Source of the DNA: Hyphomicrobiales bacterium
GTDB lineage: Bacteria > Pseudomonadota > Alphaproteobacteria > Rhizobiales > Beijerinckiaceae
Length of the DNA: 64,000 nucleotides
Assembly: GCA_027484655.1 (NCBI GenBank)
Contig: JAIXSM010000034.1
Span: 1-64,000 of the forward strand
Direction: 5' to 3'
Shown: positions 77 through 47,257 of the stretch, one piece after another
Layout: each line of letters begins with the position of its first letter
How positions within the stretch are numbered: position 1 is the first letter of the stretch
Notes under the pieces: generated by a model
Told to the model about the DNA's origin: nothing
Seen by the model: the letters and a program-made list of their open reading frames with translations, nothing else
Database searches by the model: none
Program-made: the position numbers and the translations under genes

Positions 77-239
77 CCCCCTCCCGGGCGCCATCCGGCG
101 CCCACCCTCCCCCGCAAGCGGTGGAGGGGCGCCAACGTCGCTGCATTGCAGCTGTATAATTAGGCGCAAATTATTGTGCGCGTCTCCCTCTCCCGCTTCA
201 GTGGGAGAGGGTGGTTTGCGAAGCAAACCGGGTGGGGGC
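77..239 (+). repeat. Double-hairpin palindromic element, intergenic copy
   Basis: The left arm (77-113) is CCCCCTCCCGG followed by a GGCGCC-ATCC-GGCGCC hairpin and ACCCTCCCCC. The right arm (about 203-238) is roughly its inverted complement, with its own internal hairpin (GGTTTGC/GCAAACC). The centre is unrelated to the other copies. The same architecture occurs twice inside dnaE2 (44055-44233 and 46695-46873). The left arm here is nearly identical to those copies and the right arm is diverged. This copy contains stop codons and is not coding. Confidence 0.8.
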
Positions 240-41420: not shown

Positions 41421-41435
41421 GAACAAATAGTGAAC
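41421..41435 (+). promoter_or_regulatory. LexA (SOS) box ahead of imuA
   Basis: GAAC, seven bases, GAAC: the direct-repeat operator used by alphaproteobacterial LexA (equal to GTTC-N7-GTTC on the other strand). It is 17 bp upstream of the imuA ATG, so LexA would block transcription of imuA-imuB-dnaE2. Confidence 0.85.
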
Positions 41436-41452: not shown

Positions 41453-42271
41453 ATGTCGCCAGGCGGCAGGTCGGAACGGATACGTATTTTGCGCGAGACC
41501 ATCGCGCGCATGGAAGGCGGCGTCGCGCCGGGTTTGGCCGCGTCCGAAGGCCCGCGTTCGTCGTCGGAGGCGGCGGCCCGCGCTCTGGAGCGGCGGCGTT
41601 CGGCCTTTTTCGAGGTGGCGCCCGCCCATGCGTCCGACGCGCCTGCGGCCGCCGGGTTCGCCCTTGCGGTGGCGGGGCGTTTTCTGCGGGAGGATGGCGG
41701 GGCCCTGTTGTGGATCGCCGACGAGTTCGCCCTGCTTGAGGGCGGCGCGCCCTACGCCCCCGGGCTGGGCGCCTTCGGCGTCGGCTGGCGCGATCTGGTG
41801 CTCATGCGGCTGCCGCGCCGGGCCGATGTTTTCCTCGCGCTGGAGGAGGCGATCCGCTCCCGCGCGTTCGGGGCGGTGATCTGCGAGCCGGGCGCCCTTT
41901 CCGGCGCTGATGCGCCCGCCATCGTGCGCCGCCTCGCCATGGGCGCGCGTACGGGCGGCGCCCGCGCCATTCTGCTGCGTCCGCCCGCCAGCGCGCGCGC
42001 GCCGTTTCTCGCGCCCACGCCCATGCGCTTCGAGGTGGCCGCGCGGCCGGCGCCGCGTCCCTCCGGCGGGCGCAAGCCGCTGCCGGGGCAGGGCGCCTGG
42101 CGCGTGCGCCACGCGGGGCCGCCGGGCAGCCTGCCGGCGTGGGGGCCGGACGAACCCCGTGATCTCGACGCCTTTCAGGAGGGGCCTTTCCAGGAGGATC
42201 TGTTCAGTGCCGCGTTATCTCTCCGTCTTCCTGAGCGCTTTGACGACGACGGCGACGTCCGCGCCGCCTGA
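41453..42271 (+). CDS. imuA: ImuA-like mutasome protein
   Basis: A 272-residue RecA/SulA-related protein. The region RRSAFFEVAPAHASDAPAAAGFALAVAGRFLREDGGALLWIAD is the ImuA core, followed by GLGAFGVGWRDLVLMRLPRRADVFLALEEAIR. ImuA works with ImuB and DnaE2 in damage-induced mutagenic synthesis. The usual LPGGG loop before the core is missing or altered (GPRSSSEAAARALER), typical of the Rhizobiales branch or degenerate. It is first in the SOS operon, directly behind the LexA box, and its end overlaps imuB by 65 bp. Confidence 0.85.
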   Translation: MSPGGRSERIRILRETIARMEGGVAPGLAASEGPRSSSEAAARALERRRSAFFEVAPAHASDAPAAAGFALAVAGRFLREDGGALLWIADEFALLEGGAPYAPGLGAFGVGWRDLVLMRLPRRADVFLALEEAIRSRAFGAVICEPGALSGADAPAIVRRLAMGARTGGARAILLRPPASARAPFLAPTPMRFEVAARPAPRPSGGRKPLPGQGAWRVRHAGPPGSLPAWGPDEPRDLDAFQEGPFQEDLFSAALSLRLPERFDDDGDVRAA

Positions 42272-43631
42272 GGCGGACGCTGGCGAACGCCTCGATCTGG
42301 TCGCCGACTGGTGCCGGCGGTTCACGCCGCTCGCCGCTCCCGACGCGCCCGATGGGGTGGTGCTCGACGTGGCGGGCGCGGCCCACCTGTTTGGCGGCGA
42401 ATCGGCGCTGATGGCGCTGGTGGAGGAGAAGCTCGCGCGTCACGGCGCCCGGGCCGGCCTAGCCGACACGCCGGAAGCCGCCTGGGCGCTGGCCCGCTTC
42501 GGCGGCGAACACGCTCGCGACCGTATGCTGCCCGCTGACGATCCCCGCGCGCTCGCCCGCGCCATGGCGTTGCTGCCGGTGGCGGCCCTGCGCATCGCCC
42601 CCGATGCCGCGCTCGCCTTGTCCCAGACAGGGCTCAAGCGCATCGGCGATATTGTGCATCGCCCGCGGGCGCCCATCACGGCGCGGTTCGGCGCGCAAGT
42701 CTTCGCGCGTCTTGACGCCATGATGGGCCTTGCGAAAAGCCCCATCTCGCCGCGCTTTGAAGCGCCCTCCTACGTGGCGGAGCGGCGTTTCGCTGACGGC
42801 GTCATGGCGCGCGACCAGATCGAGGCGACGGTTCTCGCGCTCGCCCACGATCTCTGCGCCATGCTCGGGCGCCATGACGAGGGCGCGCGCCGGCTGGCTC
42901 TGATCCTGTTTCGGGTCGACGGCGCGGTCCGCCGCATCGACTGCGCCGCCAGCCGCCCCCTGCGCGATCCCAAAGCCATGGCGCGGCTCTTCCGCGAAAA
43001 GATCGAGGCGGGCGCGCAGGGCGCCTCCACGCTTGCCCGCGATCCGCTCGACGCGGGCTACGGGTTCGATCTCATTCGCCTTGCGGTGATGGATGCGCAG
43101 ACCCTGCGCGCCGAGCAGGCTCATCTGGTTGGCGACCTCGCCAGTCCGGGCGGTTTTATGCGCGCGCGCAACGAGGATGCGCTGGCGGATTTTCTTGATC
43201 GCATGAGCGCGCGATTTGGCGCCCATCGCGTGCTGCGCCTGCATCCCCACGACAGCCACATCCCCGAGCGGGCGGCGCAGGCGCGACCGGCCGTGCGCGG
43301 CGCGCCGTCAGAACCTGCGCCCGCGCCGGCGCACGCGGGCGAGCGGCCGCTGCGCCTGTTCGAGCAGGCGGAGCCTATCGAGGCCATCGCCGAAGTGCCG
43401 GATGGCCCGCCGCTGAGATTCCGTTGGCGGCGCGCCATGCATGAAGTGGCCGCCATCGAGGGGCCCGAGCGCATTGCGCCCGAATGGTGGAAGAGCGAGG
43501 CGGGCGCCCTCACGCGCGATTATTTTCGCGTGGAGGATGTGAACGGGCGCCGCTTCTGGCTGTATCGCGAGGGACTGTATGGCGCGCAGCCGCAACGTCC
43601 GCGCTGGTATGTGCAGGGGCTGTTCGCGTGA
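42207..43631 (+). CDS. imuB: ImuB, Y-family polymerase-like mutasome hub, N-terminally shortened
   Basis: A 474-residue protein starting at a GTG with AGGAGG (VPRYLSVFL). ImuB bridges DnaE2 and the beta clamp and is catalytically inactive. Recognisable blocks are [66 protein letters not shown], and RPLRLFEQ, a probable clamp-binding motif. Between RYLSVFL and LVADWC only about 25 residues are present where homologues have about 75, so part of the palm appears deleted. The stop overlaps the dnaE2 start (GTGA). Confidence 0.88.
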
Positions 43632-46600
43632 GCTACGCGGAACTCGCCGTCACCACCAACTTCTCGTTTCTGCGCGGCGCCTCCCATCCGGAAGAGATGG
43701 CGGCGCAGGCCATGGCGCTCGGACTGGCGGGCGTGGGGATTGCGGATCGCAACTCGGTCGCCGGCGTGGTGCGCGCGCATGTTTACGCGCGCGAGAACGC
43801 TGCGGCGGAGAAGGGCTTTCGCGTGGTCGCCGGCGCGCGTCTCGTGTTCTGCGACGGCACGCCGGACATTCTCGCCTATCCCTCCGATCGCGCCGCGTGG
43901 GGGCGCCTCTGCCGTCTGCTCACGCAGGGCAACATGCGCGGCAGGAAGGGCGAGTGCCCGCTGTTTCTCGACGATCTCCTGCAATGGCGCGAGGGCCTGC
44001 TGCTGATCGTGATGGAGGAGAGTTCGTACGAGGGCGCCGCCCCCTCTGGCGCTTGCGCCGCCCCCTCCCGGGCGCCATCCGGCGCCCACCCTCCCCCGCA
44101 AGCGGGAGAGGGAGTCGCGCGCAATTATTCAGCTTCAATGAAAATCGCTGGCGCTCCCTCTCCCACGAAGTGGGGGAGGGTGGCTGGCGGAGCCAGCCGG
44201 GAGGGGGCGCGACAGCAGGGCTATCTCCCCCGCCTTCTCGCATCCTCCCGCGATAACGTGTGGCTCGCCGCGCGCATGATCTACGACGGGCGCATGCGCG
44301 AGCGTCTCGCCGCGCGCAAGGCGCAGGCCGGCAGCCTTCGCCTGCCGCTCATCGCCGTCAACGATGTGATGATGCACGCGCCCGAACGACGCGATCTCGC
44401 CGATGCGGTCGCCTGCATTCGCGAGGGCGCGCGCATTGCGGACGCCGGTAGCCGCCTGTCGCACATGAACGCCGAGCGTCACATCAAGGCGCCGCAGGAG
44501 ATGGCGCGCATCTTTCAAGATGCGCCGGAGGCGATTGCGGAGACGATGCGCTTTCTCGCGCGCATCTCGTTCTCGCTCGACCAGTTGCGCTACGAGTATC
44601 CAGCGGAGTTGCGCGAAGGCTACGCCAGCGAGCAGGAGGCGCTGGAGGCGTTCGCGTGGGAGGGTGCGCGCAAGCGCTATCCGGACGGCGTGCCAGAGAA
44701 GGTTGCAAGCGCCATTCGCTACGAACTCGCGCTCGTCGCGGAGCTGCAATACGCCGCGTATTTTCTGACCGTGCATGACATCGTGCGCTTCGCCCGCTCC
44801 AGAGGCATTCTCTGCCAGGGGCGCGGCTCTGCGGCGAACTCCACTGTGTGCTTCTGCCTCGGCGTGACGGAGGTTGATCCCACCAAGCACGACCTGCTGT
44901 TTGAACGCTTCATCTCCGCTGAGCGACGCGAGCCGCCCGACATCGACGTCGATTTCGAGCATGAGCGGCGCGAGGAGGTGATGCAGTACATCTATGCGCG
45001 TTACGGCCGCGAGCGCGCGGGGCTCACCGCCGCCGTGGTGTCCTATCGCGGCCGCTCCGCGCTGCGCGAAATCGGCAAGGTCTTTGGTTTCGACGACGCG
45101 ACGCTGGGCGCGCTCGCATCCGCCGTGTGGGGCGGCGACCGCACCGGCGACATGGCGCGCGCGAAGCTCGACGAAAGCGATCCCCGATGCGCCCATCTGG
45201 TGCGCCTGTCGCAGGAAATAGCGGGTTTTCCGCGCCATCTCTCCCAGCACACGGGCGGCTTCGTCATCACGCGCGAGCGGCTTGACGAGGTGGTTCCTGT
45301 CGCGCCCGCGGCCATGGAGGGGCGCACCATCGTCGAGTGGGACAAGGATGATCTCGACGCGCTGGGCATTCTCAAGATCGACATTCTCGCGCTGGGGATG
45401 CTCACCTGCCTCAGGCGCGGGCTCGATCTGCTGGCGACGCACTACGGCGAGCGGCTGACGCTGGCCAGCATCCCGTCTGAAGAGCCGTGCGTCTACGACA
45501 TGATCTGCCGCGCCGACACCATCGGCGTGTTCCAGATTGAAAGCCGCGCGCAGATGTCTATGCTGCCGCGCCTGCGTCCGCGCGCGTTCTACGATCTCGT
45601 CATCGAGGTTGCGATTGTGCGGCCGGGCCCCATCCAGGGCGACATGGTGCATCCGTATCTGCGTCGCAGGCAGGGGCTCGAGAGCGTGTCCTATCCCTCG
45701 AAGGAGCTTGAGGCGGTTCTTGGCAAAACCCTTGGCGTGCCGCTGTTTCAGGAACAGGCGATGCGGATCGCCATTGTCGGCGCGGGCTTCACCCCGTCGG
45801 AGGCGGACAAGCTGCGGCGCGCCATGGCGACCTTCAAGCGCGTGGGCACGATCCACACATTCCGCGTCAAGATGATCGACGGCATGATGGCGCGCGGCTA
45901 CGAGCGCGCGTTCGCCGAGCGTTGCTTCGCGCAGATCGAGGGCTTTGGCACGTACGGCTTTCCCGAGAGTCACGCCGCCTCATTCGCGCTGCTTGTTTAC
46001 GCCTCGTGCTGGCTGAAGTGCCGCTATCCGGATGTGTTCGCGTGCGCGTTGCTCAACTCGCAGCCCATGGGCTTTTACGCGCCTGCGCAGATCATGCGCG
46101 ACGCCCGCGAGCATGGCGTTGAGGCGCGCGAGCCGGACGTGAATTTTTCCGATTGGGATTGTGCGCTTGAGGCTGACGGACCCAAGCCGGGCGAGCGGCG
46201 CATTGTGCGCCGGCACGCCGAGCAGGCGCCGCACATTCGCGCCACCCACGCGCTGCGGCTGGGCTTTTGCATGATTGCCGGCGTGCGCGAGAATGACATG
46301 CGCCTCATCGCGGCGCGCCGGGGCGCGGGCTATGATTCCGTGCGCGACGTGTGGCTGCGCACGGGGCTGTCGCCGGCGGTGCTGAAAAAGCTTGCGGCGG
46401 CGGATGCGTTCCGTTCGCTGGGGCTCGACCGGCGCGAAGCGATGTGGGCCGTGCGCGGCCTCAACCGTGCGGGCGACAAGGATGATCTTGCGCTCTGGCG
46501 TCACGCGGCTGTCTCCGAGATCGAGCCTGACGCCAATCTGCCGCCCATGCCCTTGGGCGAGCATGTGGTGGAGGATTATCGCGCGCTGTCGTTGTCGCTG

Positions 46601-47257
46601 AAGGCGCATCCCGTGTCGTTCCTGCGGTCGCGGCTTGCGGCGCGGCGCATGGCGCGCTGCGCGGATCTGGCGTTGTTGAGCGCCCCGCAATGGGGCGCCG
46701 CCCCCTCCCGGGCGCCATCCGGCGCCCACCCTCCCCCGCAAGCGGTGGAGGGAGTCGCGCCCAATGATTCAGCTTCAATGAAAATCGCTGGCGCTCCCTC
46801 TCCCACGAAGTGGGGGAGGGTGGCTGGCGGAGCCAGCCGGGAGGGGGGACGACAGCAGCGCCATCTCCCCCGCGTCACAGTCGCCGGCCTTGTGCTTGTG
46901 CGCCAGCGCCCCGGTTCTGCGAAGGGCGTGGTGTTCATGACCATCGAGGATGAGAGCGGCGTCGCCAACGCCATTGTGTGGCCGAAGACGTTTGAGGCCT
47001 TTCGCCCGCAGGTCATCGGCGCGCGGTTTGTCGCCATTACCGGGCGTTTGCAGAATGAGGCGGGCGTCATTCACGTGGTCGCCGAGCATGTGGAGGATTT
47101 GTCGCCCATGCTCGGGCTTCTCTCCGCGCTCGGCCCTGATGTGACGAGCCTCGCCCGCGCCGATGAGGTGAAGCGTCCCCAGCAGCGCGATCCCCGCGAG
47201 AAGCAGGCGGCGCGCCGCGCTGAGGCGGTGATGCCGCGCGGGCGCAATTTTCATTAG
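43628..47257 (+). CDS. dnaE2: Error-prone DNA polymerase DnaE2 (ImuC) with two repeat-derived insertions
   Basis: A 1209-residue C-family polymerase for damage-induced mutagenesis. The GTG at 43628 overlaps the imuB stop. It has an N-terminal PHP domain ([22 protein letters not shown]), palm aspartates in [13 protein letters not shown] (Asp438 region), QHTGGFVIT, and [21 protein letters not shown]. The C-terminal OB domain is [17 protein letters not shown]. Family members are about 1080-1090 residues. The excess of about 120 is explained by two repeat-derived stretches, about residues 143-202 in the PHP region and 1023-1082 just before the OB domain. Whether the protein still works is unknown. 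Confidence 0.93.
44055..44233 (+). repeat. Double-hairpin palindromic element inside dnaE2, copy A
   Basis: About 179 bp, in frame. The left arm 44061-44097 and right arm 44172-44207 are inverted complements, each with its own internal hairpin (GGCGCC/GGCGCC and TGGCTGGC/GCCAGCC). It differs from the copy at 46695 at about eight positions (roughly 95% identity) and is related to 77-239. In the dnaE2 frame it encodes [14 protein letters not shown] ... AGGASREG without stop codons. Confidence 0.93.
46695..46873 (+). repeat. Double-hairpin palindromic element inside dnaE2, copy B
   Basis: Same orientation and same reading frame as copy A, offset by exactly 2,640 bp (880 codons). It encodes an almost identical stretch of about 60 residues placed between the tail of the polymerase core ([11 protein letters not shown]) and the OB domain ([10 protein letters not shown]). 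Confidence 0.93.

Follow-up and report, generated by a model that had tools for sequence, protein, structure and literature searches.

Repetitive extragenic palindromic sequences (REPs) may be combined into REPINs, in which two inverted REP-like units and a spacer form one long hairpin and which are mobilised by RAYT (REP-associated tyrosine) transposases. REPs within genes are the subject of a 2013 study by Di Nocera and colleagues. According to that study, REPs and REP dimers occur inside open reading frames, many of them belonging to DNA synthesis and repair genes, and DnaE2 is named among them (PMC3733652). Double insertions in one gene are reported there for uvrA and uvrB, genes of one functional category carry REPs at different sites with the exception of recB in two Xanthomonas, and R. 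conorii has a REP in its replicative DnaE; DnaE1 is therefore not immune (PMC3733652). Palindromic inserts that keep the reading frame are well established from Rickettsia and other bacteria (PMC2229807, PMC10969869), and these reports describe Rickettsia palindromic elements (RPEs) as short palindromic repeats which lie between genes as well as in frame in conserved protein genes, where they are tolerated, as in Gmk (PMC2229807; PMC10969869). Here, we describe a palindromic repeat which is present twice, in frame, in the error-prone DNA polymerase gene dnaE2 (imuC) of a Hyphomicrobiales bacterium. The stretch analysed comprises 64,000 nucleotides of contig JAIXSM010000034.1 (assembly GCA_027484655.1), here called the window; it is contig C71 of a 3.59-Mb genome in 80 contigs, labelled G000 (L-labels denote loci and G-labels genomes). 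We consider it highly probable that a dispersed, non-autonomous palindromic repeat entered a loop of dnaE2 in frame and was then copied to a second loop, both inserts being near-neutral passengers.

A preliminary description of the window had proposed two copies of about 179 bp in the same orientation and frame, 2,640 bp apart. Alignment of the two blocks (Table 1) clearly demonstrated 8 mismatches and no indels (96% alike) at an offset of exactly 2,640 bp, on the same strand and in the same frame. The DnaE2 protein scores well over the NCBIfam cut-off for error-prone DNA polymerase (NF004225; 1336.7 bits versus 939), contains the PHP, alpha NTPase, finger, HHH and OB domains according to Pfam, and has structures of Pol III alpha as its top PDB matches. 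The placement of the inserts in the PHP region and before the OB domain was confirmed, site 1 being a loop of the N-terminal PHP region past residue 126, the last one matched by Pfam PHP, and site 2 lying directly before the OB fold. The closest DnaE2, encoded at locus L039 of a Beijerinckiaceae metagenome-assembled genome (MAG) and 82% identical, contains neither insert in the alignment. Compared with L039 the inserts add net 55 and 50 codons, fewer than the approximately 60 residues each first estimated; the net lengths of 165 and 150 nt are multiples of three.

Each 179-bp block includes an element of ~147 bp, in which two inverted units of ~53 bp enclose a spacer of ~41 bp. RNA folding yielded a single long branched hairpin for each block, with −127.6 kcal/mol (z −8.9) for insert 1 and −109.2 kcal/mol (z −5.5) for insert 2, and none of 200 dinucleotide shuffles was as stable in either case. 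The terminal inverted repeats in the dnaE2 copies are CCCCCTCCCGG / CCGGGAGGGGG; in an alignment of 21 rows the element ends appear as C-rich and G-rich runs, and inspection of these rows by eye showed no conserved GTAG or CGTC end tag. The proposed search of the genome for the element returned 89 matches in G000 including itself, which were clustered to 62 places in 32 stretches, and the relative noted before at 77-239 is one of them (77-238). The best other full-length match to the dnaE2 copies in G000 shows 82% identity. Coding-like sequence on both sides within one open frame was found at 2 of the 62 places, both in dnaE2, at all three thresholds. Two further candidates for intragenic copies were rejected. 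On contig C43, the apparent frame of 1,312 codons is an artefact of reading from stop to stop, with a hydantoinase gene downstream, and on C76 the copy immediately precedes a gene for a membrane protein that by eye resembles a transporter. The understanding of the two segments as inserted repeats thus held, since they are absent from the nearest DnaE2 and belong to a family with many copies elsewhere in the genome; on these grounds, the opposite picture, with the segments shared by every homologue and lacking intergenic relatives, is not borne out. Several contigs of G000 start or end at or near repeat copies (C23:55, C61:7, C57:1, C13:1 and the end of C76), and copies are also located near the ends of C53, C36, C4 and C11, as is the one at 77-238 of the window. 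The repeat probably breaks the assembly, and the copy number of the element may therefore be underestimated.

In comparison with the known systems, the element resembles RPEs in lying in frame in a protein gene with further copies outside genes. It differs from them in that its host is not Rickettsia and in that only 2 of 62 copies are in frame, both in one gene. The likeness to Rickettsia palindromic elements suggested earlier stands for the mode of action, in the sense that the element works like an RPE, rather than for membership in the RPE family. With REPINs the element shares two inverted units, a spacer and a long hairpin, but no match to the Y1 transposase domain Y1_Tnp (PF01797) was obtained in G000 and no GTAG tag was seen. 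In contrast to GTAG/CGTC-tagged REPs, for which 20-40 bp are given (PMC3733652), its units measure ~53 bp and no conserved GTAG or CGTC end was seen by eye. Finally, its terminal inverted repeats are reminiscent of miniature inverted-repeat transposable elements (MITEs) moved by a DDE transposase; unlike in these, no target-site duplication was detected at 19 full-length copies of the family.

Both dnaE2 copies continue into a common 3′ flank of 23 bp, and the likeness among the aligned copies stops before it. With the two differing positions left free and up to 3 mismatches allowed, the flank had three matches in G000, the two dnaE2 copies being exact and one on contig C66 having 3 mismatches. 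As independent hops are not expected to bring an identical host flank, one dnaE2 insert was probably copied from the other, judging from the shared sequence. The LPR codons at site 2 match site 2 of relatives, which hints that site 2 was the source and site 1 the recipient, although the two sites are alike at these codons as well. Alternatively, both inserts might have arrived independently from an active master element that was longer at its 3′ end. Such a recent burst would give dnaE2 copies that are 96% alike next to a best other full-length match of 82%. However, elsewhere in G000 the 23-bp flank is never matched with fewer than 3 mismatches and the similarity among aligned copies ends ahead of it, and we consider independent insertions unlikely. 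Under the copying scenario, a non-autonomous palindromic repeat dispersed mostly outside genes would have entered a permissive dnaE2 loop without disturbing the reading frame, the second loop would have received a copy made from the first with 23 bp of flank carried along, and both inserts would be translated as unstructured Ala/Gly/Pro/Ser-rich peptides, near-neutral passengers of the polymerase.

The predicted insert peptides are rich in Ala, Gly, Pro and Ser, and all six codons that differ between the copies inside the block are nonsynonymous. For the core of dnaE2, comparison with L039 gave nonsynonymous and synonymous divergences of dN 0.123 and dS 0.913 (dN/dS ~0.13). By these substitution patterns, the polymerase is kept while the insert peptides drift. 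The structure modelling proposed at the outset was performed with AlphaFold (residues 10-1209, 42 sequences, mean predicted local distance difference test score (pLDDT) 76.9). The pLDDT was below 50 across model residues 131-186 and 1011-1068, with a mean of 26-37 in the insert 1 block (131-180), and neither helix nor strand was modelled over 131-179 and 1011-1068. In the N-terminal region, the low stretch of insert 1 is flanked by a strand and a helix, whereas that of insert 2 has a helix on one side and on the other the first strand of the OB region; further low stretches are 492-495, 939-960 and the C-terminus. Left unfolded by AlphaFold, the inserts are predicted to be tolerated passengers. 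DnaE2 genes are dispensable and damage-induced; if this one is no exception, that and the position of the loops outside the catalytic core may be why the inserts are tolerated.

To place this case among relatives, 194 distinct DnaE2 frames obtained from 216 loci were analysed together with that of the window (195 in total; 107 from loci L155-L261 of the family search, the set thus being wider than the DnaE1 set below). The survey covered nonduplicate frames of at least 600 codons and inserts of at least 25 aa within alignment columns 40-1060. Inserts were called palindromic at z < −3.5 against 40 mononucleotide shuffles or when they contained an exact inverted repeat of 10 bp or longer, a cut-off of our own. 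Altogether 95 inserts were found in 77 of the 195 proteins, and 35 of them were palindromic, compared to 4 of 195 core segments taken from the same genes as controls. Palindromic inserts occur in 27 of the 195 DnaE2s (13 of 107 in the family-search part), whereas 168 have no insert over the cut-off. Both sites of the window recur: 16 of 45 inserts at columns 147/150 (site 1) and 3 of 6 at column 974 (site 2) were palindromic. The corresponding numbers were 11/16 at column 812, 3/4 at column 854 and 1/1 each at columns 567 and 903; at column 975 the single insert was not palindromic. A natural loop common in DnaE2 was discarded as an explanation, as none of the 21 inserts at column 80 was palindromic and the window sites are elsewhere. 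The same loop holds inserts with different sequences and peptides in different species. Parsimony summed to 34 changes, a number that overcounts where a neighbour falls below the cut-off, as for L156 and L159, which share a homologous insert.

Six of these inserts were used as queries for copy number, with counts including the query itself and both strands, and five of them (L012, L013, L070, L202 and L203) have other places in their own genomes. With the L012 insert, 22 matches were obtained in the genome of L012 and 4 in G019, with none in G000 and G006; G002 had 43, including one inside its dnaE2 gene. The L013 insert matched its own genome 63 times and G006 not at all; of 7 weak matches in G000, one lies in insert 1 of the window. 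The L070 insert has 2 other places in its own genome and that of L202 had 80 matches there. The L203 insert matched its own genome 76 times, whereas G075, G173 and G135 had 97, 42 and 3 matches, respectively, and in both G075 and G173 one match is inside the dnaE2 gene or its insert. The sixth insert, that of L156, has a homologous insert in the dnaE2 gene of G168, besides one weak match in that genome; copy number did not confirm it as repeat-derived.

That many species share palindromic inserts at the same loops, together with the very stable mRNA hairpins, might suggest that the inserts have been adopted. Peptides or hairpins would then serve the polymerase, for example, by slowing translation at domain borders or by tuning a rarely wanted enzyme. 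This appears quite improbable to us: the peptides vary freely between the copies, with all changed codons nonsynonymous, the same loop is occupied by inserts differing in sequence and peptide, and 168 of 195 DnaE2s do without any insert over the cut-off. It is highly improbable that the inserts remain untranslated through ribosome bypassing or splicing; long hairpins in coding sequence do resemble bypassing elements, but both inserts are open in frame with net lengths in multiples of three, whereas of 20 full-length copies outside dnaE2, 3 are without an open frame in any of the six frames and 15 have a length, by match bounds, that is not a multiple of three. An assembly artefact or chimeric contig, which the 80 contigs and the repeat copies at or near several contig ends might suggest, can hardly account for two copies that differ at 8 positions, have different dnaE2 flanks and lie in one open frame, nor for palindromic inserts in records of strains rather than MAGs, namely Bauldia litoralis (L112) and Sphingomonas sp. 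37zxx (L113).

Some observations nevertheless weigh against a repeat insertion followed by copying. Y1_Tnp had no match in G000 (10 of 41 genomes have one), and RAYT was therefore dropped as the mobiliser. For the target-site duplication looked for alongside the multiples of three, the 19 full-length copies gave no signal, with a mean longest flank repeat of 0.79 versus 0.67 for shuffled flanks (P 0.37). Furthermore, the empty sites are those of L039, which at 82% identity is not at short distance, and the palindromic insert of L156 has only one place in its own genome.

The sister polymerase DnaE1 and the neighbouring imuB gene were used for comparison. Among 159 genomes of the family, DnaE1 (NF004226) was over the cut-off in 146 and a DnaE2 match at E 1e-130 was present in 142. 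Fifty DnaE1 sequences were aligned, the 30 best-scoring ones, which introduce a bias against inserts, and as an offset 20 picked by eye, mostly with long spans. DnaE1 and ImuB inserts were scored by inverted-repeat length alone. An insert of at least 25 aa occurs in one of the 50 DnaE1s, and a 10-bp inverted repeat within an insert in none. From 150 frames similar to the imuB-like gene of the window among the loci of relatives, 147 distinct ImuB frames were surveyed for inserts of at least 20 aa, and inverted repeats of at least 10 bp were detected in L012, L253 and L085/L198, the last pair being a single record whose frame is long and fused. The ImuB frame of L253 contains a 48-residue insert with an exact 31-bp inverted repeat at alignment column 322. 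L085 and L198 represent a 2,071-codon open frame of a Rhodoblastus MAG in which imuB runs into dnaE2, an apparent ImuB-DnaE2 fusion. In G016, two half-elements lie in frame as a pair in the imuB-like gene (L013:867-1005) and belong to a family also present in the dnaE2 of this genome; in the ImuB survey this appears as 21 residues with an inverted repeat of only 5 bp.

Intragenic copies were counted in G000, G190 and G016 based on codon usage on both sides (threshold 0.05) and an open frame through the copy, a demand by which gene-breaking copies would be missed. As the three genomes were chosen for their dnaE2 insert, that copy is not evidence here. In G190, 2 of 42 pieces were intragenic, one in dnaE2 and one in a gene with DNA ligase D Pfam domains (L328:553-2499); the latter copy, of a family also found in the dnaE2 of G190, is in frame between the 3′-phosphoesterase and ligase domains. 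In G016, 3 of the 25 pieces examined, fewer than its listed places, were intragenic, two halves in imuB and one in dnaE2. A threshold of 0 added one doubtful piece each in G190 (L340) and G016 (L353). Beyond the copy used for selection, the clear intragenic copies are hence in dnaE2 again (G000), ligD (G190) and imuB (G016), which are small numbers, and the second dnaE2 copy and the imuB halves may represent local spread.

The gene order in the window fits an imuA-imuB-dnaE2 cassette, with the family matches of imuA and imuB both below cut-off (Table 1). The imuB-like gene has an odd N-terminus without a clear ATG (42200-42290), and a GTG start or a frameshift near the start is possible. The motif GTTCN7GTTC, which we take to be the alphaproteobacterial LexA box, has a single match in the window against a chance expectation of 1.56. 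The only Rfam match in the window at gathering scores is a thiamine pyrophosphate (TPP) riboswitch away from the inserts (RF00059, 59406-59504, minus strand, 69 bits).

Table 1: Repeat copies, inserts and neighbouring genes in the window.
Feature	Position	Strand	Remarks
Full-length member of the repeat family	77..238	+	162 bp at 75% identity; not coding-like, not part of the frame of a gene
LexA-box-like site GTTCN7GTTC	41421..41435	−	17 bp ahead of imuA
imuA-like gene, first of the cassette	41453..42271	+	NCBIfam ImuA E 5.3e-9, 36.2 bits, below cut-off of 150
imuB-like (Y-family) gene	42207..43631	+	overlaps dnaE2 start; weak Pol IV family matches, below cut-off; start codon uncertain
dnaE2 (imuC), error-prone DNA polymerase	43628..47257	+	GTG start, 1,209 codons/aa, intact
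In-frame insert 1, whole shared block	44055..44233	+	179 bp; net +165 nt (55 codons) versus L039
Insert 1, left palindromic unit	44061..44113	+	many repeat matches end near query 3-55; 21-row alignment
Insert 1, right palindromic unit	44155..44207	+	inverted versus left unit
Insert 1, 3′ flank common to both dnaE2 copies	44211..44233	+	23 bp, 2/23 positions differ
In-frame insert 2, whole shared block	46695..46873	+	directly before OB fold; net +150 nt (50 codons) versus L039
Insert 2, left palindromic unit	46701..46753	+	repeat matches, 21-row alignment
Insert 2, right palindromic unit	46795..46847	+	fold and alignment
Insert 2, 3′ flank common to both dnaE2 copies	46851..46873	+	flank pattern search

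The window adds a case of in-frame invasion of a protein by a palindromic repeat outside Rickettsia, and it presents dnaE2 as a sink which, in comparison with the sister polymerase DnaE1, has received such repeats again and again. In contrast to the different sites given for REPs in genes of one functional category (PMC3733652), the loops of DnaE2 are struck repeatedly. Within the titles and abstract openings covered, we found neither a double DnaE2 insert generated by internal copying nor a report on recurrent use of the same DnaE2 loops or a comparison with DnaE1. Those who annotate DnaE2 or study its structure should expect long inserts that are repeat DNA and probably disordered. The old question of whether inserts of this kind are chance remnants, directed to their sites or of use can now be approached by counts over thousands of genomes and by tests in a laboratory alphaproteobacterium.

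The plain explanation for the recurrence in damage-tolerance genes is survivorship, in that dispensable, rarely expressed and loop-rich genes retain inserts. More tentatively, and with considerable doubt, we suggest that palindromic repeats in alphaproteobacteria end up preferentially in genes of DNA damage tolerance, being inserted or copied from place to place during derepression of SOS and repair genes and ongoing repair or translesion synthesis. The data do not separate retention from such hits on genes at work. If the latter were true, dnaE2, imuB and ligD would hold a record of the very process they carry out.

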